Of a stretch of 35,285 nt of DNA, positions 1 through 35,285 are shown in pieces; the first letter of the stretch is position 1, and every line of letters begins with the position of its first letter. The position numbers and the translations under genes are program-made. The notes below the pieces were generated by a model. It saw only the letters and a list, made by a program, of their open reading frames with translations. It did not search any database and was not told the DNA's origin. Source of the stretch: a virus; the IMG/VR virus record IMGVR_UViG_3300043313_000657, positions 1-35,285 of that record. One strand, 5' to 3'.

Positions 1-3000
1 CACTGCGGATCGCGAAGGACAGCGGGCAGATGACGATCACGCTGTTCGACGGTCGCTGGGACGAGTCGACGATCGTGCACGAGGGCGCGCATATGTTCCT
101 CCGCATCATGGAGGACCTGGCCGCCGACAGCCCGGAGATCGCCGCCGACCTGGAGACGATCCGGCAGTGGGCTCCGGACGCGACCGCGCAGCCGGGCGGC
201 CGGATGACGCGCTACCAGCACGAGCAGTTCGCGCGAGGCTTCGAGCTCTACATGCGCGAGGGCACCGCGCCGAGCCTGGGCCTGCGCGCGGTGTTCCACT
301 CGTTCAAGCTCTGGCTCCTCGATATCTACAAATCGGCGCGCGACCTGAACGTCACGATCAACGACGACGTGCGCGCAGTGTTCGATCGCATGCTCGCGAC
401 GGAAGAGGCGATCGCGGAGGTGAAGGCGATCGGCAACCTGGTGCCGCTCTACACCGATGCCGCGGCCGCCGGCATGTCCGATGCGGAGTTCATGCCCTAC
501 CAGGCGCTCGTGCTCGACGCCGGCCTGGAGGAGCGCGAGCGCCTCGAGCAGCGCCTCATGGCGGAGCTCAAGCGCGAGCAGACCAGGGCCTACAAAGCGA
601 AGCAGGCCGAGGTGCTCGAGCAGGTGTCGCGCGAGGTGAACCAGCGACCGGTCTACCGCGCCCTGGCGTTGATGCAGAAGGGCACCGAGCCGGACGGCAC
701 CGCGGTCGCCAACGTCGACGAGCCGATCAAGCTGTCGCGCACGATCGTCACCGCGCGCTACGGGATCGAGCGGCTGAAGGCGGCTCCCCGCGGCGTGCTC
801 GCGAAGGAGGGCGGAGGCGTCGACCCGGACGCGATCGCCGAGCGCTACGGCTTCCGCTCCGGCGACGAGCTCCTGCAGGCGATCACCGACGCGCCGCCGC
901 GCCGCCAGGTGGTGCTCGAGGAGACGAAGCGCCGCATGGCCGCGGAGTATCCGTCGCTGATGCAGGACCGCGCGCAGCTGCTCGAGGCGGCCCAGGAAGC
1001 CATGGGCGGCGAGGCCCGCGAGCGGGTGATCAAGGCGGAGCTCGCCGCGCTCCACCACCGGCAGCGCCTGGCGCGGCCGCACGTGCGAGTCGCCGAGCAG
1101 GCCGGCCGCGAGGCCCTCGCGCAGGAGCGGAAGGAGCGCGACTACGAGCGCCGGTGGTTCGAAGCCGAGGCCAAGCTGAAGGCCGCGATCGCCGCCGGCA
1201 AAGCGCAGGAGGTGATCGACGAGATCCGCAAGGAGCTCTCGGCGCTGAAGGCGTCGATCCGTGGCGCGGCCAAGCGCATGCGCGGCGCGATCCCCGACGA
1301 CGACACGTTCCGCCTGGCCGCCCAGGCACGCCTCGCCGGCACGGTGGTCCGCAACGTCAACCCCCAGGTGTTCTGGTCCGCCGCGCGCAAGAGCTCGCAG
1401 GTGGCTGCGGAGAAGGCCGCCCGGCAAGACCTCGAGGGCGCGATCGCAGCGAAGCACCAGGAGCTCCTGAACCTGGCGCTCTTCCGCGAGGCGACGAAGA
1501 TCAAGCGCGACGTCGAGGCGCGAGTGAAGCGGGCGCGTGCGCTGTCGAAGACCGCGGCGCGCGAGCGCCTGGGCAAGGCTGGCGGCAGTTACCTGGAGCA
1601 GGTCGAGGCGATCCTCGAGCGCTTCGAGTTCACGCCGATCACCGGGTCCGAGCGCAAGCGGCGCGCGTCTCTGATCAACTGGGTCGAGGGGCTGCAGTCG
1701 CAGGGCCTGCCGGCGGACCTGCCCGAGGCGCTGCTCAACGAAGCGCTGCGCGCCAACTACGCGGAGCTCACCTACCAGGAGCTCGTCGACGTCACCGACG
1801 GACTGCAGCAGATCGTCCACCTGTCGCGGGTGAAGAACAAGCTGCTGAAGAACAAGAAGGCCCGCGACCTGCAGAAGCTGGTGGCGCGCCTGGTCGAGTC
1901 GATCCAGGAGAACGCCGGCAAAGCGCCGCGGGCGGGCGAGCGCGATCGCCGACCCGAGGAGGAGCAGCGCCGGCTGATCGCGGACTTCTTCGCGAGCCAC
2001 CGCAAGCTGTCCAACATCCTGCGCGAGTTCGACGGCTGGGAAGATGGCGGCCCGATGTGGGAAGCGATCATGCTGCCGCTCAACCAGGCCGGCGCGCGCG
2101 AGGCGAGCATGAACGCCGAGGCCACGCGCGTGCTCGGCGAGCTCGTCGAGCACGCCTTCCCTGGCGCGCAGAAGAGTCGTCTCTACGAGAAGACCAACGT
2201 GCCGGCGATCGAGCAGGAGCTCTCGCTGATGCAGCGGCTGATCGTGGCAATGAACTACGGCAGCGACGGGAACCGCGAGCGGATGATGCGCGCCGAGGGC
2301 TGGAGCGAGGACCAGCTGCAGGCGATCGTCGAGACGCTCTCGCGCAAGGAGCTCGCCTTTGTCCAGGGCGTGGTCGATCACATCAACAGCTACTGGGAGC
2401 AGATCGCCGCGAAGCAGAAGCGGGTCACCGGGCTCGCGCCGGAGAAGGTCGCGGCGGTCGCCTGGTCGACACCCAACGGCGTGCAGCGCGGCGGCTACTT
2501 CCCGCTGAAGTATGACGACCGCCTGAACGCGAAAGCGATCCAGCAGCTGGACCTGTCGACGGCGGAGCTCGCGAAGAGCGCGGCCTACACGCAGGCGACG
2601 ACGCAGCGCGGGCACACCAAGGGGCGCGTCGAGATCACCAGCTTGCCGGTGCGCCACGACTTCGGCGTGATCTTCGAACACGTCGGCCAGGTCATTCACG
2701 ACCTGACGCACCACGAGGCGCTCGTCGACGTCAGCCGGATCCTCGGCCACCCGGAGGTGGCGCAGGCGATCATCGCGCACCACGGCGACGTGCTCTACAA
2801 GCAGATCCGCAACACGATCCGCGACGTGGCCTTCGGCGACGTGCCGGCGCAGGGCGGCTTCGAGCGCGCCATCAATCACATTCGCATCGGCTCGACGGTC
2901 GTCGGCCTCGGGTGGAATTTCACGACGTCGCTGCTGCAGCCGCTCGGCCTGTTCAACTCGGCCCACCGCATCGGCCTGGGCTGGGTCGCGCATGGCGTGG

Positions 3001-3953
3001 GTCGCTGGCTCCGCAATCCGGCGACGATGGTGGAGACGGTGCGCTGGGTGCGCGAGCGCTCGGAGTTTATGAAGACGCGCGGCCTGACGCAGCAGCGCGA
3101 GATCAACGAGATCCGCAACTCCCTCGGCATGGGCTCGGGGCGCGTCACCGGCTGGGTCGACCAGGTGCTCGACGACGTGCAGAGTCCGGTGACCCGGCAC
3201 GCGATCGCCGACAGCTACTTCTCCATGATCGCCTTCGCGCAGACAATCGCTGATATACCGACCTGGCTCGGCATGTATCAGAAGCAGATGGACGCCGGCG
3301 TGTCGGAGGACCGCGCCGTGGAGCTCGCCGACCAGGCGGTGCTCGACAGCCAGGGTGGTGGGCAGATCAAAGACCTCGCCGGCATTCAGCGCGGCGGGCC
3401 CATGCTGAAGCTGTGGACCAACTTCTACTCGTTCTTCAACGTGCTCTACAACCAGGCCGCGGAGACGAAGCGGCGCACGCAGAAGGAAGGCGACCCCGCC
3501 GCGATCGCGCGCGCCATGGCCGACTACCTGGTGCTGTTCGTGGTGCCGGCGACGGTCGGCTACTTCATGCGGCAGCTGCTGCGCCGCACGCACGACGACG
3601 ACGACGAGCCGGAGCAGCTGGCGAAGCACCTGGCTGTCGAGAACCTGAGCTACCTGTCGGGGATCATGCTCGGCGTGCGCGAGGTGTCGTCGGTGTTCCA
3701 GGGCACGCAGGGCTACGAGGGCCCGGCCGGCGCGCGGTTCTTCGCTTCGCTCTCGAGAGCCGGCACACAATGGTCGCAGGGGGAGGTGGACGTGCCGGCG
3801 GTGCGCGCCACCGCGGAGGTGCTCGGCGCACTCACGCACCTGCCGAGCGGCCAGGTGATGCGATCGATCCTCGGGACCATGGCGCTGATGGAAGGCGAGA
3901 CGGATAACCCCTGGGCCGTCGTCTCCGGCCCACCACCGAAGAACGGACGCTGA
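1..3953 (+). CDS. Giant polyvalent virion protein, zincin motif plus LPD38-like C-terminus (5' partial)
   Basis: The frame is open from the first full codon at base 3, so the gene begins upstream; the ATG at 30 is only the first in-window Met. Counting from that Met, HEGAH at residues 17-21 is an HExxH zinc-peptidase motif, followed by Glu65 and Glu72 (HEQFARGFELYMREG), either of which could be the third ligand, as in gluzincin-like domains of phage polyproteins. A long charged, helical, coiled-coil-prone middle follows (about 170-640). The last 350 residues carry hydrophobic segments and a WTNFYSFFNVLYNQ stretch typical of 'large polyvalent protein-associated domain 38'. Such proteins are thought to be packed in podovirus heads and ejected with the DNA. 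Peptidase activity is inferred from the motif only. Stop TGA at 3951-3953. Confidence 0.85.
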   Translation, partial: LRIAKDSGQMTITLFDGRWDESTIVHEGAHMFLRIMEDLAADSPEIAADLETIRQWAPDATAQPGGRMTRYQHEQFARGFELYMREGTAPSLGLRAVFHSFKLWLLDIYKSARDLNVTINDDVRAVFDRMLATEEAIAEVKAIGNLVPLYTDAAAAGMSDAEFMPYQALVLDAGLEERERLEQRLMAELKREQTRAYKAKQAEVLEQVSREVNQRPVYRALALMQKGTEPDGTAVANVDEPIKLSRTIVTARYGIERLKAAPRGVLAKEGGGVDPDAIAERYGFRSGDELLQAITDAPPRRQVVLEETKRRMAAEYPSLMQDRAQLLEAAQEAMGGEARERVIKAELAALHHRQRLARPHVRVAEQAGREALAQERKERDYERRWFEAEAKLKAAIAAGKAQEVIDEIRKELSALKASIRGAAKRMRGAIPDDDTFRLAAQARLAGTVVRNVNPQVFWSAARKSSQVAAEKAARQDLEGAIAAKHQELLNLALFREATKIKRDVEARVKRARALSKTAARERLGKAGGSYLEQVEAILERFEFTPITGSERKRRASLINWVEGLQSQGLPADLPEALLNEALRANYAELTYQELVDVTDGLQQIVHLSRVKNKLLKNKKARDLQKLVARLVESIQENAGKAPRAGERDRRPEEEQRRLIADFFASHRKLSNILREFDGWEDGGPMWEAIMLPLNQAGAREASMNAEATRVLGELVEHAFPGAQKSRLYEKTNVPAIEQELSLMQRLIVAMNYGSDGNRERMMRAEGWSEDQLQAIVETLSRKELAFVQGVVDHINSYWEQIAAKQKRVTGLAPEKVAAVAWSTPNGVQRGGYFPLKYDDRLNAKAIQQLDLSTAELAKSAAYTQATTQRGHTKGRVEITSLPVRHDFGVIFEHVGQVIHDLTHHEALVDVSRILGHPEVAQAIIAHHGDVLYKQIRNTIRDVAFGDVPAQGGFERAINHIRIGSTVVGLGWNFTTSLLQPLGLFNSAHRIGLGWVAHGVGRWLRNPATMVETVRWVRERSEFMKTRGLTQQREINEIRNSLGMGSGRVTGWVDQVLDDVQSPVTRHAIADSYFSMIAFAQTIADIPTWLGMYQKQMDAGVSEDRAVELADQAVLDSQGGGQIKDLAGIQRGGPMLKLWTNFYSFFNVLYNQAAETKRRTQKEGDPAAIARAMADYLVLFVVPATVGYFMRQLLRRTHDDDDEPEQLAKHLAVENLSYLSGIMLGVREVSSVFQGTQGYEGPAGARFFASLSRAGTQWSQGEVDVPAVRATAEVLGALTHLPSGQVMRSILGTMALMEGETDNPWAVVSGPPPKNGR

Positions 3954-4996: not shown

Positions 4997-5231
4997 AGGG
5001 CTCCGGAGCATGATGCGTCTTTTCGGAACCAGAGAGGCTACGGTTGTGCAACCCCTGGCGGTGCGCGAGAGGAGTGACGACCGCCGCCGGTCGATCGGGT
5101 TTGAGGTGCGCCAGACACCGCGTGTCAGCCTGCAGCAGCAGCGACACGACCACGACCTGGCGCTGCAGCAGGAAGTGCGTGAAGAGTTCGCCGAGCTCCG
5201 CGAGCGTCTCGAGTCGGTGCGGCCGGCGTAG
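4986..5231 (+). CDS. Small hypothetical protein, charged C-terminal helix
   Basis: 81 residues from ATG 4986, overlapping the preceding gene by 11 nt. An alternative start at ATG 5010/5013 has GGAG just upstream and would remove most of the overlap. The sequence is Arg/Glu-rich and ends in a helix (EEFAELRERLESVR). There is no lipobox or membrane segment, so an outer spanin is not supported. Its stop codon abuts the promoter-like palindrome at 5231. Confidence 0.55.
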   Translation: MWFEGLRSMMRLFGTREATVVQPLAVRERSDDRRRSIGFEVRQTPRVSLQQQRHDHDLALQQEVREEFAELRERLESVRPA

Positions 5232-5263
5232 TTCTTGACAACAACGGTCGTGGGGATTAGCCT
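5231..5263 (+). promoter_or_regulatory. Sigma70-type promoter overlapping operator-like palindrome (site 1)
   Basis: GTTCTTGACAACAAC at 5231-5245 contains a consensus -35 box, TTGACA (5235-5240). TAGCCT at 5258-5263 is a plausible -10 after a 17-bp spacer. The 15-mer is nearly palindromic around its centre and is identical to the element at 8845. The predicted transcript would start near 5270, with a short leader carrying AGGAG before ATG 5281. Confidence 0.65.
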
Positions 5264-5280: not shown

Positions 5281-5622
5281 ATGGCCGACGACGGCGTCTA
5301 TCGCATTCCCACGTTCCCCGTCTCGAGCAGTAACATTGCCGCCGTCGGCTACGACGACGACAAGCACGTGCTCGCCATTGAGTTCGCCAGCGGCGTGATC
5401 TACCACTACGCCGGCGTCACCGCCGACCAGGCGCTCGACCTGAAGAACGCACCATCGATCGGGCGCTACTACTCCACCAACATCAAGGGCAAGTTCGCCG
5501 GCCAGAAGATGACCGGGCACTGCCCACGCTGCGGGATCCAGGCGCGGGTCGGAGAGGTGTGCCCCGATTGCGGGTGCGACCTGATCGCCGCGGACCCCTT
5601 CAAGGAGAAGCACCATGTCTGA
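5281..5622 (+). CDS. KTSC domain protein with C-terminal zinc ribbon
   Basis: 113 residues; strong SD (AGGAG) before the ATG. Residues ~14-76 match the KTSC domain pattern: VSSSNIAAVGYD, a beta strand LAIEFASGVIYHYAGV, then SIGRYYSTNIKGKF. KTSC is a small domain of uncertain function seen alone or fused in phages and bacteria, and proposed to bind nucleic acid. Residues ~80-98 hold two Cys pairs (CPRCG and CPDCG), a classical zinc ribbon. The fusion suggests a nucleic-acid-associated role, which is inference. First gene after promoter site 1; its end overlaps the next gene by 8 nt. Confidence 0.8.
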   Translation: MADDGVYRIPTFPVSSSNIAAVGYDDDKHVLAIEFASGVIYHYAGVTADQALDLKNAPSIGRYYSTNIKGKFAGQKMTGHCPRCGIQARVGEVCPDCGCDLIAADPFKEKHHV

Positions 5623-6153: not shown

Positions 6154-6186
6154 GCAACGCCGGACCGTGTGAGGGTCCGGCGCTGC
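6154..6186 (+). terminator. Terminator-like hairpin
   Basis: GCCGGACC (6159-6166) pairs perfectly with GGTCCGGC (6174-6181) around a 7-nt loop. The stem extends outward by GCAAC/GCTGC with one mismatch. ATTT follows, so the U-tract is weak. A second small hairpin, GGCGG/CCGCC (6196-6214), lies before the next gene's SD. Confidence 0.5.
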
Positions 6187-8613: not shown

Positions 8614-8852
8614 AGGGCTACCGCGAGGAGGGCGATCGGTTCATGGTCGAGCGCCTGGCCGACGGCGTCTCGTTCAAGGTGCGCCACTTTCCCGACCCGG
8701 TCACCAGGCGCAGCTGCTGCACCGTCACCGTCACCATGACGGACGCCGACCGCGCGAAGGCGATCCCGGACGCTGACCCCCACGGCGAAGCGGCGTGCCT
8801 GGCGCGCGCCACCGTCGCGATCGAGAAGCGACACGCCCGACCCCGTTCTTGA
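8610..8852 (+). CDS. Hypothetical protein (80 aa)
   Basis: ATG 8610 overlaps the previous stop by 4 nt; 80 residues. The middle looks like beta strands (GVSFKVRHFP, SCCTVTVTMTDADRAKA). No domain recognised. Its TGA (8850-8852) lies inside the TTGACA of the promoter for the next operon, so the operons abut without free spacer. Confidence 0.6.
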   Translation: MKGYREEGDRFMVERLADGVSFKVRHFPDPVTRRSCCTVTVTMTDADRAKAIPDADPHGEAACLARATVAIEKRHARPRS

Positions 8853-8878
8853 CAACAACTCCGGCCGCGGTGTAGTCT
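8845..8878 (+). promoter_or_regulatory. Sigma70-type promoter overlapping operator-like palindrome (site 3)
   Basis: GTTCTTGACAACAAC (8845-8859) is identical to the site at 5231. TTGACA (8849-8854) is followed after 18 nt by TAGTCT (8873-8878). Transcription would begin about 8885, immediately before the conserved hairpin at 8886. Confidence 0.65.
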
Positions 8879-8885
8879 CTGAGCT

Positions 8886-8910
8886 CGCACCGAGGCGCGA
8901 CCCTCGGGCG
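8886..8910 (+). ncRNA. Conserved 5'-leader hairpin, copy 1
   Basis: A 25-nt hairpin: a 3-bp stem (CGC/GCG), a bulged A at 8889, a 6-bp stem (CCGAGG/CCTCGG) and loop CGCGAC. It shares 22 of 25 positions with 10228-10252, and all three differences keep the pairing. Flanking bases extend the stem (GAGCT before, AGTTC after). It sits at the predicted 5' end of the mRNA, 16 nt before ATG 8926 and next to its GGGAG SD, so it could affect mRNA stability or translation. Confidence 0.55.
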
Positions 8911-8925
8911 AGTTCGGGAGACAAC

Positions 8926-9672
8926 ATGGACCTTCGTAGTTACGACTGGATCGTGATCAACTCGAGCGCCGGCAAGGACAGCCTGTCGATGCTCGACCTG
9001 ATCGTGGAGATGGCGACCGCGCAGCAGGTGCTCGAGCGCGTGCTCGTGGTGCACGCTGACCTGGGCCGGGTGGAATGGGCCGGCACGCGCGAGCTCGCCG
9101 AGCGGCAGGCGCAGCGCTACGGCCTCCGCTTCGAGGTGGTCGCCCGCTCCAAGGACCTGCTGTCGCACGTCGAGCAGAAGGGCATGTGGCCGGACAGCCA
9201 GGCCCGCTACTGCACGAGCGACCACAAGACGTCGCAGGTGCACAAGCTGTTCACGCGCCTGGTCGACGAGCTCGCGCCCGGCCGCCAGGTTCGCATCCTC
9301 GACTGCCTGGGCATCCGCGCCCAGGAGTCCCCGAAGCGCGCGAAGAAGGAGCCGTTCAAGTTCAACCGGCGCGCGTCGAACGGCCTGCGCCACGTCGACA
9401 CCTGGTTGCCGATCTTCACCTGGACGCTCGACGAGGTGTGGGCCCGCATCAACGACCGCGGCCTCGAGAGCCACCCGGCCTACGCGCTCGGCATGAGCCG
9501 GCTGTCCTGCTGCTTCTGCGTCCTGGGTTCGAAGCCGGACCTGCTGATCGCCGCGCGCCACAACCCCGAGCTCCTGGACGCCTACGTGGCCGTCGAGGAC
9601 CGCATCGGCCACCGCTTCACCCACAAGTTCAGCATCCGCGAGATCCGCGACGAGGTGACCTGCAATGACTGA
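8926..9672 (+). CDS. PAPS-reductase/PP-loop family protein
   Basis: 248 residues. SAGKDS (residues 14-19) is the PP-loop that binds the ATP/adenylyl pyrophosphate. RYCTSDHKTSQV (95-104) resembles the CxxxxK segment of phage PAPS-reductase-like proteins, and GIRAQES (129-135) is the family's third motif. CCFC (195-198) is an unusual Cys cluster that could bind metal or Fe-S together with Cys96. The family includes sulfonucleotide reductases and DndC/TilS-like enzymes; in phages the substrate is generally unknown, with nucleic-acid modification suggested. It is the first gene of its operon, behind a promoter and a conserved leader hairpin. Confidence 0.8.
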   Translation: MDLRSYDWIVINSSAGKDSLSMLDLIVEMATAQQVLERVLVVHADLGRVEWAGTRELAERQAQRYGLRFEVVARSKDLLSHVEQKGMWPDSQARYCTSDHKTSQVHKLFTRLVDELAPGRQVRILDCLGIRAQESPKRAKKEPFKFNRRASNGLRHVDTWLPIFTWTLDEVWARINDRGLESHPAYALGMSRLSCCFCVLGSKPDLLIAARHNPELLDAYVAVEDRIGHRFTHKFSIREIRDEVTCND

Positions 9673-9967
9673 CGATCGACTCTTCGAGCTCCTGGACGCC
9701 ATGCGCGGCGCGCCCTCCTACGTCGAGGGCACCGGCCGGCGGATGTGGACCCACGCCCCCGGCTTCGGCATCGTCGAGCAGCGCCGTCTCGGCAAGGGGC
9801 AGCGCTGGTCGTTCGCGCCGTCTCGAGACGTGGTGCCGCCGGCGCTCTACGCCTACGGCCTCATGGGCCCGCGGTCGTGGTCGCGGCCGCTGCTCGAGTG
9901 GGCCCGCCGCGCCGAGCTCCTCAACGTCGCCGCGCACGCGCAGGCCATGTCGGTGCGGTGCCTCTGA
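9665..9967 (+). CDS. Hypothetical protein (100 aa)
   Basis: ATG 9665 overlaps the PP-loop gene by 8 nt. 100 residues, rich in aromatic and Arg residues (GRRMWTHAPGFGIVEQRR), ending in a helix (PLLEWARRAELLNVAAHAQAM). No domain recognised. Coupled to the following gene through TGATG. Confidence 0.65.
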   Translation: MTDDRLFELLDAMRGAPSYVEGTGRRMWTHAPGFGIVEQRRLGKGQRWSFAPSRDVVPPALYAYGLMGPRSWSRPLLEWARRAELLNVAAHAQAMSVRCL

Positions 9968-10155
9968 TGGCGACCTCGCAGAAGGCGATCACGATCGGCC
10001 GCTACCTGGCGCGCGAGCTCTTCGCCGCGCGCGGCAACCACTCGGAGGTGCACCTCTCCGAGGCGGAGCTCGTGGCACTCCTGGCCCTCGCGGTCGAGCG
10101 GTCGGAACTGCCGGCGGAGTTCTTCGAGGACCTGCTCGGCCAGGGCCGCCGGTAG
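9967..10155 (+). CDS. Small helical hypothetical protein (62 aa)
   Basis: ATG 9967 shares a base with the upstream TGA (TGATG). 62 residues, mainly helical, with an acidic end (LSEAELVALLALAVERSELPAEFFEDLLGQ). Unknown function. Its stop lies just upstream of the next promoter/palindrome. Confidence 0.6.
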   Translation: MATSQKAITIGRYLARELFAARGNHSEVHLSEAELVALLALAVERSELPAEFFEDLLGQGRR

Positions 10156-10157
10156 GG

Positions 10158-10192
10158 AGTTGTTGACAACAACTGCCGTCTCGGCGTAAGCT
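10158..10192 (+). promoter_or_regulatory. Sigma70-type promoter with perfect 17-nt palindrome (site 4)
   Basis: AGTTGTTGACAACAACT (10158-10174) is a perfect inverted repeat with 8-nt arms around a central A. It contains TTGACA (10163-10168); TAAGCT (10187-10192) follows after 18 nt. This is the best-formed member of the palindrome family and looks like a repressor-type operator over a -35 box. Confidence 0.7.
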
Positions 10193-10201
10193 CTCTCTCG
10201 T

Positions 10202-10252
10202 CCCCGTCGGGTAGGGGCAAACTTCAACGCACCGGGGCGCGACCCCTGGGCG
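10202..10252 (+). ncRNA. Structured 5' leader with conserved hairpin, copy 2
   Basis: Two hairpins lie between the promoter and ATG 10275: CCCC/GGGG (10202-10217), and the 25-nt conserved hairpin at 10228-10252. Relative to copy 1 at 8886, the A-U pair becomes G-C and a G-C pair becomes G-U, so structure is kept while sequence changes. The bulged A and the CGCGAC loop are identical. Confidence 0.55.
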
Positions 10253-10274
10253 GCAACGAGAGGGCAAACTGAAA

Positions 10275-10643
10275 ATGGCACAGACACACTTCGCGGCAGT
10301 CAAGGATGGCATCGTCGTCGGCACGCGCTCGAGCGCTTCGCGCCACGTCGACGGCCTGGGCAAGTTCGGTCCCTACACCCACGCGCTGCTCCGCTCGGAG
10401 CGCAAGACCTTCCTGCAGTCCGGCCAGGTCGTCGAGTCCACAGACGTGATCAGCTGGCACGGCAGCGCGCCGCTCGCCGCGGCCGCCCGCCGCCTGGCGC
10501 ACGTCGGCCTCACCCACACGATGGACTACAGCTACCGGCCGGTCGAGGAGCACTACAAGCTGACCTACACCGCGGCGGAGATCGTCCCCGTCGTCGTCGT
10601 CGCCCGCAAGGCCAAGCTCGGCGCGCGCGTGGAGGGCAACTAA
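10275..10643 (+). CDS. Hypothetical protein (122 aa)
   Basis: 122 residues behind promoter site 4 and a structured leader; GAGAGGG upstream could act as SD, though it lies about 11 nt away. Residues 1-45 look like a small beta/helical fold (HFAAVKDGIVVGTRSSASRH), with a Val/Lys-rich end (EIVPVVVVARKAKLG). No family recognised. Having a promoter of its own suggests a product needed early or in quantity. Confidence 0.7.
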   Translation: MAQTHFAAVKDGIVVGTRSSASRHVDGLGKFGPYTHALLRSERKTFLQSGQVVESTDVISWHGSAPLAAAARRLAHVGLTHTMDYSYRPVEEHYKLTYTAAEIVPVVVVARKAKLGARVEGN

Positions 10644-11362: not shown

Positions 11363-12364
11363 ATGGCGAAGCGAACGAAGGCGAACGACGTGCTCGAGGG
11401 GGAGCTCGTGCTCCCGGTGGTGGCGACGGACGAGGACGAGCAGACGGTGCTCGCCGCGGGCAAGACGGTGATCGGGTTCCTGCAGTCGGTGTCGGCGTTC
11501 TTCACCACCGCCCGCGCGCTCGAGCACCGCGCGCTCGCGACCCAGGCGCGGTTCAAGGCGATGCCGGTGCCGGCGGACATGGCGGCCGACGAGCTCCTGC
11601 AGCGGGAGATCAGAACCGCGAACGAGGACAAGCGCGAGGTGGAGGGGCACTGGAAGATCACCGCGGTGATCTCCGGCTTCCACCGCAAGATGACCGCGCG
11701 CCGCGCCAAGGCGACCGAGGCGCTCGAGGACGCCGCGCGCATCGGCAACGCGCTGCACAACGGCTACGTCACCGCCGAGCGCCGGCGCGCCGAGGAGGAG
11801 AACCGCCGGCGGGAGGAGGAGTCGCGCCGCGCCGCGGAGGAGCGGCAGCGCCAGGAGCTCGAGCGCATGGAGCTCGAGGCGGTCAAGCGCGAGGAGGCGA
11901 CCGAGGGCCTCAGCGGCCGCGAGCAGATCTTCGTCGAGCAGATCGTGGGCCACGGCGACGGGCTGCGCGCCGCCCGGCAGGCCGGCTTCCCTGACCCGGC
12001 GAAGAGCTCGACGCGCCTGCTCAAGCTGGCGAAGATCCAGGCCGCCATCAAGGGGGCCCAGGAGGCCGCCGCCATTCGTCGCCAGGCGGTCGCGGTGAAG
12101 GCCCGGCCGGTCGTGGCTGACCCGGTCCCCTACGTCGCGCCGCAGATCACCAGGGCCCCCGGCGCGCAGGACCGCAGCTATCACTACGGCGACCTGACCG
12201 ACGAGGGCGCGCTGATCGCCGCCATCCTCTCGGGCAACCACGGGATCCCGACCGACCTGCTGAAGATCGACACCTCGAAGCTGAACGACTACGCGAAGGA
12301 CCTGGGCGACCGCATCAACCGCTGGCCCGGCGTGAAGTATCGGAAAGAGACGAAGGTGGTCTGA
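11363..12364 (+). CDS. Coiled-coil protein with internal TerS-like helix-turn-helix
   Basis: 333 residues; SD AAGGAG upstream. Residues ~75-180 form a long charged helix with an Arg/Glu coiled coil (AERRRAEEENRRREEESRRA). Residues ~185-237 (LSGREQIFVEQIVGHGDGLRAARQAGF...SSTRLLKLAKIQAAIKGA) follow the HTH pattern of the Terminase_2 small-subunit family, similar in layout to the true TerS encoded at 21467. A distinct C-terminal domain (YHYGDLTDEGALIAAILSGNHG) ends the protein. It sits among replication/recombination genes, so a DNA-binding role there is likelier than packaging. Function unknown. Confidence 0.7.
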   Translation: MAKRTKANDVLEGELVLPVVATDEDEQTVLAAGKTVIGFLQSVSAFFTTARALEHRALATQARFKAMPVPADMAADELLQREIRTANEDKREVEGHWKITAVISGFHRKMTARRAKATEALEDAARIGNALHNGYVTAERRRAEEENRRREEESRRAAEERQRQELERMELEAVKREEATEGLSGREQIFVEQIVGHGDGLRAARQAGFPDPAKSSTRLLKLAKIQAAIKGAQEAAAIRRQAVAVKARPVVADPVPYVAPQITRAPGAQDRSYHYGDLTDEGALIAAILSGNHGIPTDLLKIDTSKLNDYAKDLGDRINRWPGVKYRKETKVV

Positions 12365-12545: not shown

Positions 12546-13165
12546 CCACTGAACGCAGACCCCTCGACCGCTACGACACTGCCGCCTGGCAGGTCCGCGC
12601 GCTGCTCGCCAACGTCCCGGAGATCAAGGGCCGGATCGTCGAGCCGTGCTCGGGCGACAACTCAATCGTGAAGGTGATGCACGACTACCTGCCGGGGAAG
12701 ATCGACAGCATGATCACCAACGACATAGACCCGGAGACGCCGGCGGCGATGCACATGGACGCCACCGGCCGCGCCTTCTGGGAGCTCGTCGCGCCGCGCT
12801 GCGACTGGGCGGTGAGCAACACGCCCTACGACATGCCGACGTGCCTGGAGATCGTGCAGCATGCGGTGACCTACGCGAAGGTGGGCGTGGCACTGATGCT
12901 CCGCCTGACGTTCCTCGAGCCGACCGACACCAGGCACCCGCGGGGCCCCTGGCTCGCCGACCACCCGGTGTCGCGCCTGCTCGTGCTCCCGCGCTACTCG
13001 TTCACCGGCAACGGCAAGAGCGACAGCGTCACGACCGCCTGGTTCGTCTGGTCGCGCAAGCGGCTCGTCGGCCGGCCGATGCTCTGCCTGAACGCTGCCG
13101 ACGTCACCTACGCCACGCTCCCCGAGATCGAGCAGGAGGCCCGCCATGCTGACGCCCAATGCTAG
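12542..13165 (+). CDS. DNA adenine-type methyltransferase (NTPY variant)
   Basis: GTG 12542 is preferred because GGAG lies 6 nt upstream and it gives a 4-nt GTGA overlap; ATG 12530 in the same frame would add four residues. The protein has a motif I-like segment for SAM binding (RIVEPCSGDNSIV), an acidic strand (MITNDIDP), and DWAVSNTPY at the position of the [DN]PP[YF] catalytic motif. Thr replaces the first Pro. This layout fits phage N6-adenine methyltransferase-like proteins acting on DNA. Lack of an obvious target-recognition domain and the variant motif leave activity uncertain. Its C-terminus overlaps the helicase gene by 20 nt. Confidence 0.7.
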   Translation: MTTERRPLDRYDTAAWQVRALLANVPEIKGRIVEPCSGDNSIVKVMHDYLPGKIDSMITNDIDPETPAAMHMDATGRAFWELVAPRCDWAVSNTPYDMPTCLEIVQHAVTYAKVGVALMLRLTFLEPTDTRHPRGPWLADHPVSRLLVLPRYSFTGNGKSDSVTTAWFVWSRKRLVGRPMLCLNAADVTYATLPEIEQEARHADAQC

Positions 13166-15005
13166 TGCGCCGACGCTGCGGCCCTACCAGGGCGACCAGC
13201 TGCAGGCGATCGCGGACTCCTGGTCGGCCGGCACCAACCGGGTCCTGATCAAATCGCCGACGGGCACCGGCAAGACGGTGACGTTCGCGGCGATGCCCCG
13301 CTTCCCCCAGGTCGCGAGTCGGCTCGCGGCGTTCCCGCAGCGCGGCGCGTTCATGCTGGTGATCGCCCACCGCGAGGAGCTCCTCACCCAGGCCGCCGCG
13401 AAGCTGCAGGCCGCCAACCCGAAGCTGATCGTCGATATCGAGATGGCGGACAACTACGCCTCGCGCGCGGCGAACATCATCGTCGCGTCGATCCAGACGC
13501 TGGCCGCGGTGAGCGGTGGCCGGAAGTTCAGCCGGCTGTTGCGCCTGATGCGGGACCACACGTTCCGCCTGGTGATCGTCGACGAGGCGCACCACTCGGC
13601 GGCCGCGAGCTACCGCACCGCCCTGGTGCACCTCGGGTTCCTGCCGGCGGAAGATGCCAGCGACGTCGACAACGTCGAGGCCCCGGACTACGACGACGTG
13701 GCGCTGATGCAGGCGCACCTGGGGGCCTGGGACAAGCGCGCGCCGCAGGACCGCATGCTGGTCGGGTTCACCGCGACCCCGACCCGGAGCGATGCGATCG
13801 GCCTCGGCTGCGTGTTCCAATCGATCGCCTACAGCTACGCGCTGAAGCAGGCGATCGACGACGGCTGGCTCGTGCCGATCACGCCCTGGGTCGTCGAGTC
13901 GAACATCAGCCTGGACGACGTCGCCATCACCGCCGGCGACTTCAACCAGAAGCAGCTGGCCGCGGCGGTGAACCAGAGCCGGCGCAACGACCTGGCGGTG
14001 GCGGCCTGGCGCGACCACGGCGAGGACCGCCAGACCCTCGCGTTCACCGTCGACGTCGCGCACGCGCACGACGTGGCCGCGGCGTTCCAGGCGGCCGGCA
14101 CGCCGGCGCTCGCGATCAGCGGCGAGACACCGAAGCCGGACCGCCGCAACGCGCTCGAGGCCTACCGCAACCGGCGCGTGCGCCTGCTCGCCAACTGCAT
14201 GGTGCTCACCGAGGGCACCGACCTGCCGGAGACGGGCTGCATTCTGCATCTCAAGCCGACGAAGAGCGCGACCCTCTACGAGCAGATGACCGGCCGCGGG
14301 CTCCGGCTGTTCGACGGCAAGGAGGACTGCCTGGTGATCGACCTGGTCGACGTGGCGAAGAAGCACTCGCTGCAGACCGCGCCGGTGCTCTACGGTCTGC
14401 CGCCGGGCCTGGTCGTCAACGGCGAGAGCCTCGACCAGGCAGAGTCCGACCTCGAGGCCTTCAAGGAACAGCACCCGACGATCGACGTCGAGGAGCTCCT
14501 CCGCACCGGGCGGCTGACGCTGGCGCAGCTGCAGGCCCGCGCGACCACGTTCGATATCTGGAAGATCCCGAGCCTGGGGGCGCTCGAGGCGGTGGTCAGT
14601 CTCAACTGGATCAAGCAGTCAGCCGACCGCTTCAAGCTGTCCTACCCCTGGGGCGACGGCTACGAGACGATCGAGGTGGGCCCCGACCTCCTGGGCAAAT
14701 TCGAGATCGCGCTGACCATGCGCGAGAAGCAACCGGGCGGGATGGGCTACGACGTCCGCCAGCGGACCCTCGCCAACGGGCTCCAGGACGCCGCTACGGC
14801 GCTGCGGGCGGCCGAGGCATGGGTAGGGTCGGACCGCCGGACGATCGCACGCCTCCGGTCCAGGGAGGCCCCCTGGCGCAGCCGGCCGGCGTCCCCTGGG
14901 CAGCTGGGGGTCCTGCGGAAGCTGCGCGTGCCCTTCTCGCCGAGCATCAACAGCGGCCAGGCGAGCGACATGATCGACATGGCGCGGCAGCGCACCCGTC
15001 GGTGA
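13146..15005 (+). CDS. SF2 DEAH-type helicase
   Basis: 619 residues with a full superfamily 2 motif set: Q-like LRPYQ (11-15), Walker A SPTGTGKT (37-44), motif Ia VIAHREELL (72-80), Walker B DEAH (146-149), motif III FTATPTR (208-214), and a C-terminal RecA domain with LTEGTDLP (354-361) and motif VI YEQMTGRGLR (378-387). It resembles RecQ/RAD25-like phage helicases used in recombination, fork restart or origin opening. The last ~150 residues are an extra Arg-rich region that could contact DNA. It ends at a long structured intergenic region, so it probably closes its operon. Confidence 0.9.
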   Translation: MLTPNASAPTLRPYQGDQLQAIADSWSAGTNRVLIKSPTGTGKTVTFAAMPRFPQVASRLAAFPQRGAFMLVIAHREELLTQAAAKLQAANPKLIVDIEMADNYASRAANIIVASIQTLAAVSGGRKFSRLLRLMRDHTFRLVIVDEAHHSAAASYRTALVHLGFLPAEDASDVDNVEAPDYDDVALMQAHLGAWDKRAPQDRMLVGFTATPTRSDAIGLGCVFQSIAYSYALKQAIDDGWLVPITPWVVESNISLDDVAITAGDFNQKQLAAAVNQSRRNDLAVAAWRDHGEDRQTLAFTVDVAHAHDVAAAFQAAGTPALAISGETPKPDRRNALEAYRNRRVRLLANCMVLTEGTDLPETGCILHLKPTKSATLYEQMTGRGLRLFDGKEDCLVIDLVDVAKKHSLQTAPVLYGLPPGLVVNGESLDQAESDLEAFKEQHPTIDVEELLRTGRLTLAQLQARATTFDIWKIPSLGALEAVVSLNWIKQSADRFKLSYPWGDGYETIEVGPDLLGKFEIALTMREKQPGGMGYDVRQRTLANGLQDAATALRAAEAWVGSDRRTIARLRSREAPWRSRPASPGQLGVLRKLRVPFSPSINSGQASDMIDMARQRTRR

Positions 15006-15078
15006 CCGTCCTACACCACATCTTGGGGGGTTGATCGACGGGAGCGGACCCGCGTAGGATCCGCCCCGAAACGAAAGC

Positions 15079-15113
15079 GGGCCGGCGAAGGGGGCTGATC
15101 CCCCCGCCGGCCC
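15079..15113 (+). terminator. Strong terminator-like hairpin after helicase gene
   Basis: GGGCCGGCG (15079-15087) pairs perfectly with CGCCGGCCC (15105-15113). Inside it, after two unpaired A, GGGGG pairs with CCCCC around loop CTGAT. There is no U-tract (CTAAGACC follows), so it may instead be an RNA-processing or protein-binding hairpin. Confidence 0.5.
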
Positions 15114-15224
15114 TAAGACCGCAGCCCGTGGTGAAGTCACGGGAACGGCGTTCCGGCGGCTATTCTACGTCGGACCCCTTCCTGGCAACAACTCCACAAA
15201 ACTCCACCCGGCTGCGAGCTCGCG

Positions 15225-15406
15225 CGAGCGACGGCTCAACCCACCGGGGCGCGCGGGTGATAGGCCGGCACTGGGAGTGCCACGCCGGCAAAGGACTGGA
15301 GCGAAGGTCTGCGTCCTGGCAGGGGCCGGCGTGCGTCAGCTGGCCGAAAGAGCAGACCCACCTGGGTGCGTGACGTCACGCGCGCCTGGGGCCACGAGCG
15401 ACGGCT
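15225..15406 (+). repeat. Direct repeat CGAGCGACGGCT (two copies, 170 nt apart)
   Basis: Exact 12-nt copies at 15225-15236 and 15395-15406; a 7-nt partial third copy (GACGGCT) lies at 15410-15416. Iteron-like repeats inside a non-coding region next to replication genes. Confidence 0.45.
15306..15358 (+). ncRNA. Nested hairpin, candidate structured RNA
   Basis: An outer stem GGTCTGC (15306-15312)/GCAGACC (15352-15358) encloses a 7-bp stem GGCCGGC (15324-15330)/GCTGGCC (15339-15345, one G-U pair) with an 8-nt loop. Nearby are hairpin GGCACT-GGG-AGTGCC (15267-15281) and the palindrome at 15368. This could be part of a larger folded RNA; no known RNA family was recognised. Confidence 0.35.
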
Positions 15407-15433
15407 TTAGACGGCTGAATCGTGCAGTGGCTG

Positions 15434-15458
15434 GCTCTCCCTTTTCGGTAGGGGGAGC
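15434..15458 (+). terminator. Hairpin upstream of replication operon
   Basis: GCTCTCCC (15434-15441) pairs with GGGGGAGC (15451-15458) with one G-U, loop TTTTCGGTA. No U-tract follows. It could terminate upstream transcripts, stabilise an RNA 3' end, or form part of the structured region. Confidence 0.4.
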
Positions 15459-15496
15459 TCTGCCTCGTTCGCTCTGGCATTACCGGCTGTTGAATA

Positions 15497-15511
15497 CTTC
15501 TTACTAACAAC
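15497..15511. promoter_or_regulatory. Operator-like palindrome before loader-dnaB operon (site 5)
   Basis: CTTCTTACTAACAAC, a member of the TTCTT...AACAA family with near-symmetrical arms around a central C. It ends 13 nt before GTG 15525. TAACAA could be a -10 element, but no good -35 is seen. Confidence 0.4.
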
Positions 15512-33208: not shown

Positions 33209-35285
33209 GTGGCAATCTTCGACGCGAACAGAGTCCAGAACCTGACCTTCTACATCGTCCTGGACGATGCCGAGCGGGTCGCCGAGCTCAACGCGCAATA
33301 CCCCGACGGGGTGAACCTGCCGCCCTACGTGCCAGGTCCACCCGAGGGCGGGGCGTCCATCGACTACGACGCGCCGTGGATCGGCCTGGCGTCCCCAGGG
33401 GCGCACCTGCCGCCCTACTCCTACACCGACTGGCCGAGCTCCCCCAGTAAACCCTTCCCGACGGACGTGCACACGTTCTCGAGGCACACAGGGGGCTTCC
33501 TGGGCATCGGCGGCACGACGGTCCGCTACTACTGGATCGCGAAGTTCGTCTACATGCCCAACGCGAACGTGGGCAACGACGAGGCGGGCGTGCCCTCGTG
33601 GGCGGCGACCCCGGCCAAGCTGTTCCTGGAAGGCTTCGAAACCCCTGGCCGCGGCGCAGCGGTGGGCAACGTCGGCGAGTATTGCATCACCGATGCGAGC
33701 CGGCACGTCGGCGGCCGCGGCCTGGCGGTGCGCGGGCAGACGAGCGCCACCTACTCGCTGGCTCCGACGTCGTCCGGCGCGACCCCGTTCGACGTCAAGG
33801 AGCAGTGGGACCGGCTCTACATCCGGCTGCGGAAGCTGCCGACCGCGACCAGCAACTTCTGGCGCTACTCGACCACGCCGTCGGCCGGTGTCGGGCACGT
33901 GCTCGGCGTCACCGCGAGCGGGGGCATTGCCATCTTCTCGAGCAACTCGAGCTCGGTGCTCTCCCTGGTGACGGTGATCTCGGGCTTCGAGCTCGAGGTG
34001 TGGAACGGCCTGGCGAGCCACGACGTCTGGTGCAAGGTCGATATCGTCTACAAGGTCGGCGCGGGCGGGGTGTTCCGGCTCTATCTGAACGGCGAGCAGG
34101 TCTACTCCGGAGCCACGCCGTCGGGCCCGACCGCGATCGTCAACAGCAGCGTCGGCGCGCCTGGGCAGAACCCCAACGACCTCGAGCTCGATATCGACGA
34201 CTGGTCCGCCGCCAACTGGCCGCGGAAGGGCGGCGACTTCTACGTCAGCAAGGACTTCCTCAACGGCACCAAGATCGCGCTGATCCGGCCCACCGAGTTC
34301 AACGCCGGCGCGGGCTGGACCGGCAACGTGCGCGTGCTCGCGCAGAATGCGTTCGGCTTCGTGCCGGCGGAGCTCACCTCGAGCACCAGCGGCGCGCTCG
34401 TCCAGGTCGACACCGACAGCACCCAGGTGGTCGACAACGATCCGGGGGCCGCCGGCTACGGCGCGACCGCCATCCAGGTGCAGGCCTACAGCAAGCGCGG
34501 CGGCGCGCCGAGCGGCTCGCTGGGCTACAACATCAACGGAGCCGGCGCGGTCGACACCGCGGTGACGCAGTCAGCCTCCCTGGGCGGCAACTCGCTGATC
34601 TACTCGACCGAGACAGCGGAGGACGAGGACCCCTTCGAGGACGTCACGCCGGTGATCCTCCGGCACACCAAGGCGGCGGACGCGACCGCGGCGACGATCG
34701 CCTCGCTGAACGCCAGCGTCGAGCTCGTGGGCAAGTTCACCACGTGCGACTACCGCGACGACGAGCAGGAGGCCCTGGGCACCGACCCGAGCGCGAACCT
34801 GAACCTCGGGACCGGTCCGCACAACACGCCCTATCCGCGCACGCCCTGGGCGAAGCGCGGCCTGGCTCCACCGATCGGCACGTTCATCGTGCACGCCGGC
34901 ACCTACACCGGCAACGGCACGGGCCAGGACCTGATCTTCCGCCAGCCGGTGCACTGGCTGTGGATCCGCCCGACGTCGGGAGCGTTCGGCGGCGGCACCT
35001 TCTGGCTGTCCGCCGGCCAGGGCTCGCACACCGCGCTGCAGACGGGCATCTATCCCGGTATCGCCCACGCCGAGGCCGACCCCGCCTTCACGCCGGCGGA
35101 TGGCGAGGACGTGGTGCAGTTCCAGTTCCGGGTGCGGATTGCCGGCAACGACCAGGAGGTGAACGCCAACACGGTCGTCTACCAATACATCGCGGTCAGC
35201 GACCCGTCGATGCGCTTCCTGATCACCGGGACGATCGCGCACAAGGACACCGACACCGCGACGATCAACAAGCTGCCGGTCGAAG
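33209..35285 (+). CDS. Tail/virion protein with LamG-like domain (3' partial)
   Basis: Open reading frame from GTG 33209 to the window end, at least 692 residues. No stop is reached. Residues ~120-330 form a concanavalin/LamG-like sandwich: KLFLEGFETPGRGAAV, EQWDRLYIRLRKLP, HDVWCKVDIVYKVG, FRLYLNGEQVYSGA, LELDIDDWSAANWP. After that come Ig-like or fibre-type repeats (NVRVLAQNAFGFVPAEL, TAIQVQAYSKRGGA) and a second beta region with TFIVHAGTYTGNGTGQDLIF. Such proteins are tail fibre or appendage components contacting host glycans. SD GGGGG lies just upstream, partly inside hairpin II. Confidence 0.8.
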   Translation, partial: MAIFDANRVQNLTFYIVLDDAERVAELNAQYPDGVNLPPYVPGPPEGGASIDYDAPWIGLASPGAHLPPYSYTDWPSSPSKPFPTDVHTFSRHTGGFLGIGGTTVRYYWIAKFVYMPNANVGNDEAGVPSWAATPAKLFLEGFETPGRGAAVGNVGEYCITDASRHVGGRGLAVRGQTSATYSLAPTSSGATPFDVKEQWDRLYIRLRKLPTATSNFWRYSTTPSAGVGHVLGVTASGGIAIFSSNSSSVLSLVTVISGFELEVWNGLASHDVWCKVDIVYKVGAGGVFRLYLNGEQVYSGATPSGPTAIVNSSVGAPGQNPNDLELDIDDWSAANWPRKGGDFYVSKDFLNGTKIALIRPTEFNAGAGWTGNVRVLAQNAFGFVPAELTSSTSGALVQVDTDSTQVVDNDPGAAGYGATAIQVQAYSKRGGAPSGSLGYNINGAGAVDTAVTQSASLGGNSLIYSTETAEDEDPFEDVTPVILRHTKAADATAATIASLNASVELVGKFTTCDYRDDEQEALGTDPSANLNLGTGPHNTPYPRTPWAKRGLAPPIGTFIVHAGTYTGNGTGQDLIFRQPVHWLWIRPTSGAFGGGTFWLSAGQGSHTALQTGIYPGIAHAEADPAFTPADGEDVVQFQFRVRIAGNDQEVNANTVVYQYIAVSDPSMRFLITGTIAHKDTDTATINKLPVE

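Follow-up and report, generated by a model that had tools for sequence, protein, structure and literature searches.

The window analysed here, a stretch of 35,285 nucleotides (positions 1 to 35,285 of IMG/VR virus record IMGVR_UViG_3300043313_000657), is phage DNA with a G+C content of 69%. A DNA search of phage records gave no near matches. TerL is 49% identical to that of Xanthomonas phage CP2 and the epsilon15-like head-tail connector is 46% identical to that of phiV10, and by these two proteins the closest cultured relatives are proteobacterial phages (46-49%). A sibling phage, IMGVR_UViG_3300044466_000011 (G001), shares 87-90% nucleotide identity with the window across most of the compared DNA. 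Genes of the replication region encode a Rad52/Mgm101-like protein, a helicase, DnaB and a resolvase. The window phage also encodes a large polyvalent protein; positions 30-3953 correspond to the C-terminal part of a 3772-residue large polyvalent protein of the sibling (L154:3162-14480), which has LPD22, DUF7178, acetyltransferase-like and ParB-like parts. The promoters (predicted from the sequence), palindromes and genes that concern us are as follows.

5231-5245, no strand assigned: palindrome like that at 8845-8859
8845-8859, no strand assigned: imperfect palindrome GTTCTTGACAACAAC over the -35 hexamer
8849-8878, + strand: predicted promoter 1 (TTGACA at 8849-8854, 18 nt, TAGTCT at 8873-8878)
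8926-9672, + strand: first gene behind hairpin copy 1, PAPS-reductase-like protein (phrog_424)
10158-10174, no strand assigned: perfect palindrome AGTTGTTGACAACAACT
10163-10192, + strand: predicted promoter 2 (TTGACA at 10163-10168, 18 nt, TAAGCT at 10187-10192)
10275-10643, + strand: first gene behind hairpin copy 2, a 122-residue protein for which no family was found
11363-12364, + strand: core gene of the copy 2 operon, a 333-residue terminase-small-subunit-like (TerS-like) helix-turn-helix protein
13146-15005, + strand: DNA helicase gene of the copy 2 operon, used as the query for relatives

The sequence-only reading had placed two copies of a hairpin behind the same kind of promoter, and both do lie 3' of like TTGACAACAAC promoters with TA---T -10 hexamers. 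At 5235 there is a further TTGACAACAAC promoter without a hairpin, so that only the last two of the three + strand promoters (5235, 8849 and 10163) carry one. The generic consensus scan did not call promoter 1, the -10 hexamer of which matches at only three of six positions. Transcription is predicted to start at about 8885 and about 10199; from the former start the hairpin would open at the very 5' end of the transcript. A palindrome over the -35 hexamer, GTTGTTGACAACAAC, is common to all three predicted early promoters of the window, and most relatives have related palindromes at their promoters; it is possibly a shared operator, perhaps for a repressor. The two hairpins, both on the + strand, are composed as follows, the scores being those of a model in whose building both copies were included.

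8884-8912: hairpin copy 1, whole (40.0 bits, E 9e-7)
8884-8888 / 8908-8912: copy 1 outer stem CTCGC/GCGAG
8889: copy 1 bulged A
8890-8895 / 8902-8907: copy 1 inner stem CCGAGG/CCTCGG
8896-8901: copy 1 loop CGCGAC
10226-10254: hairpin copy 2, whole (37.2 bits)
10228-10230 / 10250-10252: copy 2 outer stem CGC/GCG
10231: copy 2 bulged A
10232-10237 / 10244-10249: copy 2 inner stem CCGGGG/CCCTGG, with one G-U pair
10238-10243: copy 2 loop CGCGAC

The copies had been noticed as 25-nucleotide elements, CGCACCGAGGCGCGACCCTCGGGCG at 8886-8910 and CGCACCGGGGCGCGACCCCTGGGCG at 10228-10252, said to agree at 22 positions with preserved pairing, and inspection of both bears this out: the mismatches, at positions 8, 19 and 20, turn an A-U pair into G-C and a G-C pair into G-U, and the bulged A and the loop are constant. 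In copy 1 the stem reaches beyond these 25 nucleotides. Pairs of 25-mers with three or fewer mismatches number 18 in the window (overlapping windows counted), against 0-2 in block shuffles. Folding-energy z scores are -1.7 for 8885-8925, -1.25 for 10220-10262 and -5.3 for 8873-8935, the last taking in a longer copy 1 stem; such energies are by themselves weak evidence in DNA of 69% G+C, and comparison was therefore needed to decide. Over the full predicted leader of copy 2 (10199-10275), the lowest-energy fold is a competing one rather than the hairpin. The complementarity of copy 1 runs past the predicted transcription start, with GTCTC 5' of the stem and GAGAC at the Shine-Dalgarno sequence (8870-8925); an extension of this type is absent from the sibling.

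Relatives gathered by helicase-alignment search brought the total to 19 copies (15 different sequences) across 13 phage records, namely the window, the sibling and 11 relatives whose helicases are 46-63% identical, carriers being found down to about 46% helicase identity. The carriers belong to a clade of phages with an epsilon15/CP2-like terminase and head-tail connector. The family consensus is an outer stem, a bulged A, a 6-bp stem and a hexaloop CRNGAC closed by a G-C pair. Copy 2 of the sibling is identical to that of the window over 25 nucleotides, and its copy 1, at the orthologous site, has the outer stem TCGGC/GCCGA and inner stem CCGGGG/CCCTGG in place of CTCGC/GCGAG and CCGAGG/CCTCGG, amounting to four double-sided compensations and one change of G-C to G-U around an unchanged bulge and loop (A and CGCGAC). 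Inner stems of the other relatives include GTTCAG/CTGAAC, CGGAGG/CCTCCG, GTGGAG/CTCCAC and CGCGGG/CCCGCG.

In the alignment of the 15 distinct sequences (A3), 92.1% of the cells in the stem are paired (shuffled, 61.8 +- 2.8), 45 cells carry double-sided changes (shuffled, 15.3 +- 2.8) and the covariation is 0.793, compared with 0.237 +- 0.039 after shuffling and at most 0.207 for slid structures, a control that preserves the relatedness of the rows. Double-sided changes occur in ten of the 11 base pairs, the eleventh being the invariant loop-closing G-C. As A3 had been gathered partly with a structure descriptor, bias was checked in three ways. A hairpin search of the leaders with stem length, loop length and bulge left free returned, as its strong cases, hairpins of 6 bp and 6 nt with the loop CRNGAC and a purine bulge (A, once G). 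An IMG/VR-wide scan with a pattern that fixed promoter, loop and spacing and did not require pairing found all ten clade sites perfectly paired and 15 other sites with 1-5 mispairs. L471 (one mispair) encodes no clade protein and was set down to chance. The selection on RNA structure that had been proposed for these operon leaders is supported by covariation across 13 records; the condition named in advance as refuting it, that related phages would lack additional covarying copies, was put to the test and did not hold.

As the third check, the descriptor was run over 5.3 Mb of strand-bases; each of the 13 perfect bulged-A hairpins that it gave stands immediately behind a promoter (matched automatically for 12, and by eye for L321:19153). 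Reversed-sequence controls gave 28 sites, not one of them perfectly paired. The copies score 29-41 bits, and the best background score in other DNA, 1.2 Mb in all, is 17-18 bits; no copy occurs in CP2 or in phages further removed (best score 18 bits). Weak model matches of about 19 bits in G038, G043 and G039, coding-like and in a context unlike that of the leaders, were taken as chance. Among the matches listed from a pattern scan of bacterial genomes, none combined perfect inner pairing, an outer stem and a promoter-like -10.

What is kept in the hairpin is its bulge and loop. Among the 15 distinct copies the loop-closing G12, C13, G16, C18 and C19 are invariant, and G14, A17 and the bulged A are each present in 14 (the bulge exception is a single G); loop and bulge columns carry 1.65-2.0 bits apart from the free N of the loop, and most stem columns vary. 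A fixed loop and bulge beside a varying stem argues for sequence-specific recognition by a specific binder, although loop conservation could partly reflect hairpin stability rather than binding. On the coding strand G-U outnumbers A-C by 11 to 1, so that it is the sense RNA, and not the DNA, on which selection acts. The comparison shows that this selection bears on the pairing, on the bulged A and on the GCRNGACC loop region, and that the element is linked to predicted operon promoters.

All copies stand just 3' of sigma70-like promoters, usually with the predicted 5' nucleotide of the transcript paired within the hairpin. In ten of the 15 measured copies the bulge is the 10th-12th nucleotide past the -10 hexamer, which means that the conserved outer pairs, about three in number, begin at the predicted +1; outer pairing is near-complete for three pairs below the bulge and fades further out, at about the predicted transcript start. 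The remaining five lie 18-39 nt away: copy 2 of the window (39 nt) and of the sibling (29 nt), and copies in G003, G048 and G042 (G042a). With starts predicted by sequence and taken to lie 7 nt after the -10, the minimum-energy fold has the first nucleotide paired in nine of 15 leaders and the Shine-Dalgarno sequence free. The start codon follows the end of the inner stem by 16-42 nt, and the hairpin overlaps neither this codon nor the Shine-Dalgarno sequence. A hairpin promoter for an N4-type virion RNA polymerase was also considered and rejected: the 3772-residue protein matches LPD22 and no polymerase family, and the hairpin sits 3' of sigma70-like promoters.

The main copy heads the operon of the 333-residue core protein and the helicase; homologues of the former stand behind the hairpin in carriers and occur also in hairpin-free phages. 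Second copies precede the PAPS-reductase gene in the window and sibling, stand directly before the helicase part of the operon in G038 and G043 and are placed elsewhere in G042. Several genomes carry two copies that head different operons, which points to a shared tag rather than to autoregulation of one gene. In 16 of the 29 phages in the helicase tree the same operon is without the hairpin, and several of these have nothing more than a Shine-Dalgarno-bearing leader of about 20 nt; the element is therefore dispensable, an optional module. Its distribution on the tree is patchy (seven changes, compared with a shuffled mean of 9.8), suggesting an old module that has repeatedly been lost or moved. 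No gene exclusive to carriers, as a candidate partner, was found. The first early gene of the window, at 5281-5622, has a leader of only about 20 nt, and its product is a KTSC-domain protein (sibling homologue at 7.7e-21) that is present in 19 of 28 clade records; it was rejected as the binder, being found also in phages without the hairpin and not in the carriers G038, G043, G052 and G056, some of which are fragments.

No Rfam 15 family matched at gathering score in the window or at six loci from relatives, and a permissive search of 8800-10350 gave only two unrelated sub-threshold matches. Among the nearest known systems are the coat-protein operators of the RNA phages MS2 and PP7, which have an upper stem of 2 bp (MS2) or 4 bp (PP7) and a loop ANYA or AUAUGG, that of PP7 being a hexaloop. 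Like these, the present element is a short hairpin in which an A (a G in one of 15) bulges from the 5' side beneath the loop, the loop letters being fixed and the stem free. However, it has 6 bp between bulge and loop, its loop is CRNGAC, and it stands upstream of the Shine-Dalgarno sequence before several operons of a DNA phage, whereas the RNA-phage operator spans the ribosome-binding site and start codon. A start-codon operator would account for the fixed letters, not for the position, and no homologue of Levi_coat (PF01819) was present in the 12 records searched. Cluster K mycobacteriophages carry the SAS/ESAS elements, likewise repeated, with inverted repeats, before several phage genes, and of unknown function (PMC3203893). 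SAS, GGGATAGGAGCCC, lies at the ribosome site, and ESAS has conserved arms and a variable spacer, the reverse of the hairpin described here; the window has one match to GGGATAGGAGCCC with two mismatches, at 35044, against a chance expectation of 0.73. Features that define MS2/PP7 operators, put, nut and SAS are thus missing from the family. The phage leader hairpin is a known kind of element, and this family is new as far as tested against Rfam 15 and, by keyword search, open-access papers.

The hairpin is probably a regulatory signal recognised by something; of the roles suggested from sequence alone, a translational operator bound by protein, a 5' stabiliser and a riboswitch are each possible. 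Our preferred reading, to which we assign a probability of roughly one half, is a 5'-terminal hairpin bound through its bulge and loop that regulates the replication-operon mRNAs. Lying in cis at the predicted 5' end of these mRNAs or no more than about 30 nt from it, it would form as the nascent leader folds, pairing the 5' nucleotide and leaving the Shine-Dalgarno sequence free; a macromolecule, whether a phage or host protein or RNA polymerase, would read the bulged A and loop and, acting on each tagged mRNA, would bring two separate operons of one phage under joint control. The outcome we favour is that a hairpin-binding protein at the 5' end controls how stable these mRNAs are and how they are translated; more widely, any of stability, translation and elongation might be affected in the replication operons. 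We tentatively entertain the further possibility of a new class of sequence-specific 5' tag, in which a protein or RNA polymerase binds the bulged A and CRNGAC at the first transcript nucleotides and so singles out phage messages to be protected, preferentially translated or processively transcribed.

A generic 5'-terminal stem-loop of the ompA or papA type, in which pairing of the 5' end would impede RppH/RNase E or RNase J and there is no specific binder, appears rather unlikely. Such stabilisers need no particular loop, whereas here GCRNGACC and the bulged A are nearly invariant across the clade as stem letters change, and the five copies at 18-39 nt from the -10 are not terminal. Points of likeness are a stem-loop at what is predicted to be the extreme 5' end, the predicted 5' nucleotide paired in nine of 15 leaders, a free ribosome site and an optional module before otherwise short leaders. 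Bacterial RppH requires unpaired 5' nucleotides (PMC3997798), consistent with protection by a paired 5' end. A stabiliser of this type would account for the 5' position, not for the fixed loop and bulge.

It is also unlikely, in our judgement, that the early operons open with a signal for processive antitermination or antipausing, either a put-like RNA acting on RNA polymerase or a nut/boxB-like site for a phage protein. The put RNA of HK022 is about 70 nt long, folds into two stem-loops with a triple helix, and acts through the beta' zinc-binding domain to let RNA polymerase pass terminators. It opens two early operons, and putL lies directly behind its promoter PL (PMC9378689). The present element similarly heads more than one operon in one phage just behind a promoter, but is a single hairpin of about 25-29 nt, and the folded leaders contain no constant second stem-loop. 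Lambdoid nut sites resemble it in having a small hairpin with a specific loop in early operons, and the loop can be read as C-GNRA-C; the hexaloop and bulge differ from the boxB pentaloop, the hairpin is at the predicted 5' end, and no boxA-like motif was found in the 15 predicted leaders. Strong intergenic hairpins of 13-14 bp within the operons, at 6154-6186 and 15079-15113, would suit such a mechanism, but they lack a + strand U-run, and no clear U-tailed terminator was found on the + strand within the operons. Antitermination therefore explains the promoter-proximal site, the several operons and the specific loop and bulge, and leaves the two-stem put shape and boxA missing.

A DNA palindrome for a dimeric DNA-binding protein near the transcription start would fit the inverted-repeat arms and the nearby palindromic promoter operators, but is highly improbable: the arms vary around a constant spacer, the reverse of a dimer site, the conserved bulge is off-centre and G-T pairs are frequent on one strand only. 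Chance, or a recent duplication without function, which would suffice for the two window copies alone, can practically be dismissed in view of the covariation across 13 records, the scores far above background and the reversed-sequence controls.

This is a structured phage RNA family outside Rfam that was noticed from raw sequence, and sequence-specific 5' elements are rarely known on DNA-phage mRNAs. Its 19 copies, with compensated stems and fixed bulge and loop, are ready-made natural variants, and its optional presence in otherwise like operons offers a natural comparison with and without it. Should its reader be a small phage protein, hairpin and protein would make up a new RNA-protein pair of the order of MS2/PP7 or boxB/N; should the hairpin act on RNA polymerase, it would be a minimal put-like element.

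A third, decayed copy had been suggested at 15242-15253. This sequence, CACCGGGGCGCG, scores 10.1 bits, compared with 37-40 for the true copies, lacks the CRNGAC loop and forms no hairpin of the same type; it sits instead within a different conserved non-coding stretch. That stretch, about 450 nt of non-coding DNA between the helicase and DnaB genes (15030-15500), contains a promoter-like TTGATC-18-TAGGAT, and over much of its core it hardly differs from the sibling. Weak matches occur in G003 (downstream of its helicase), G044 and G060, and the region is a candidate for a larger structured RNA or an origin.
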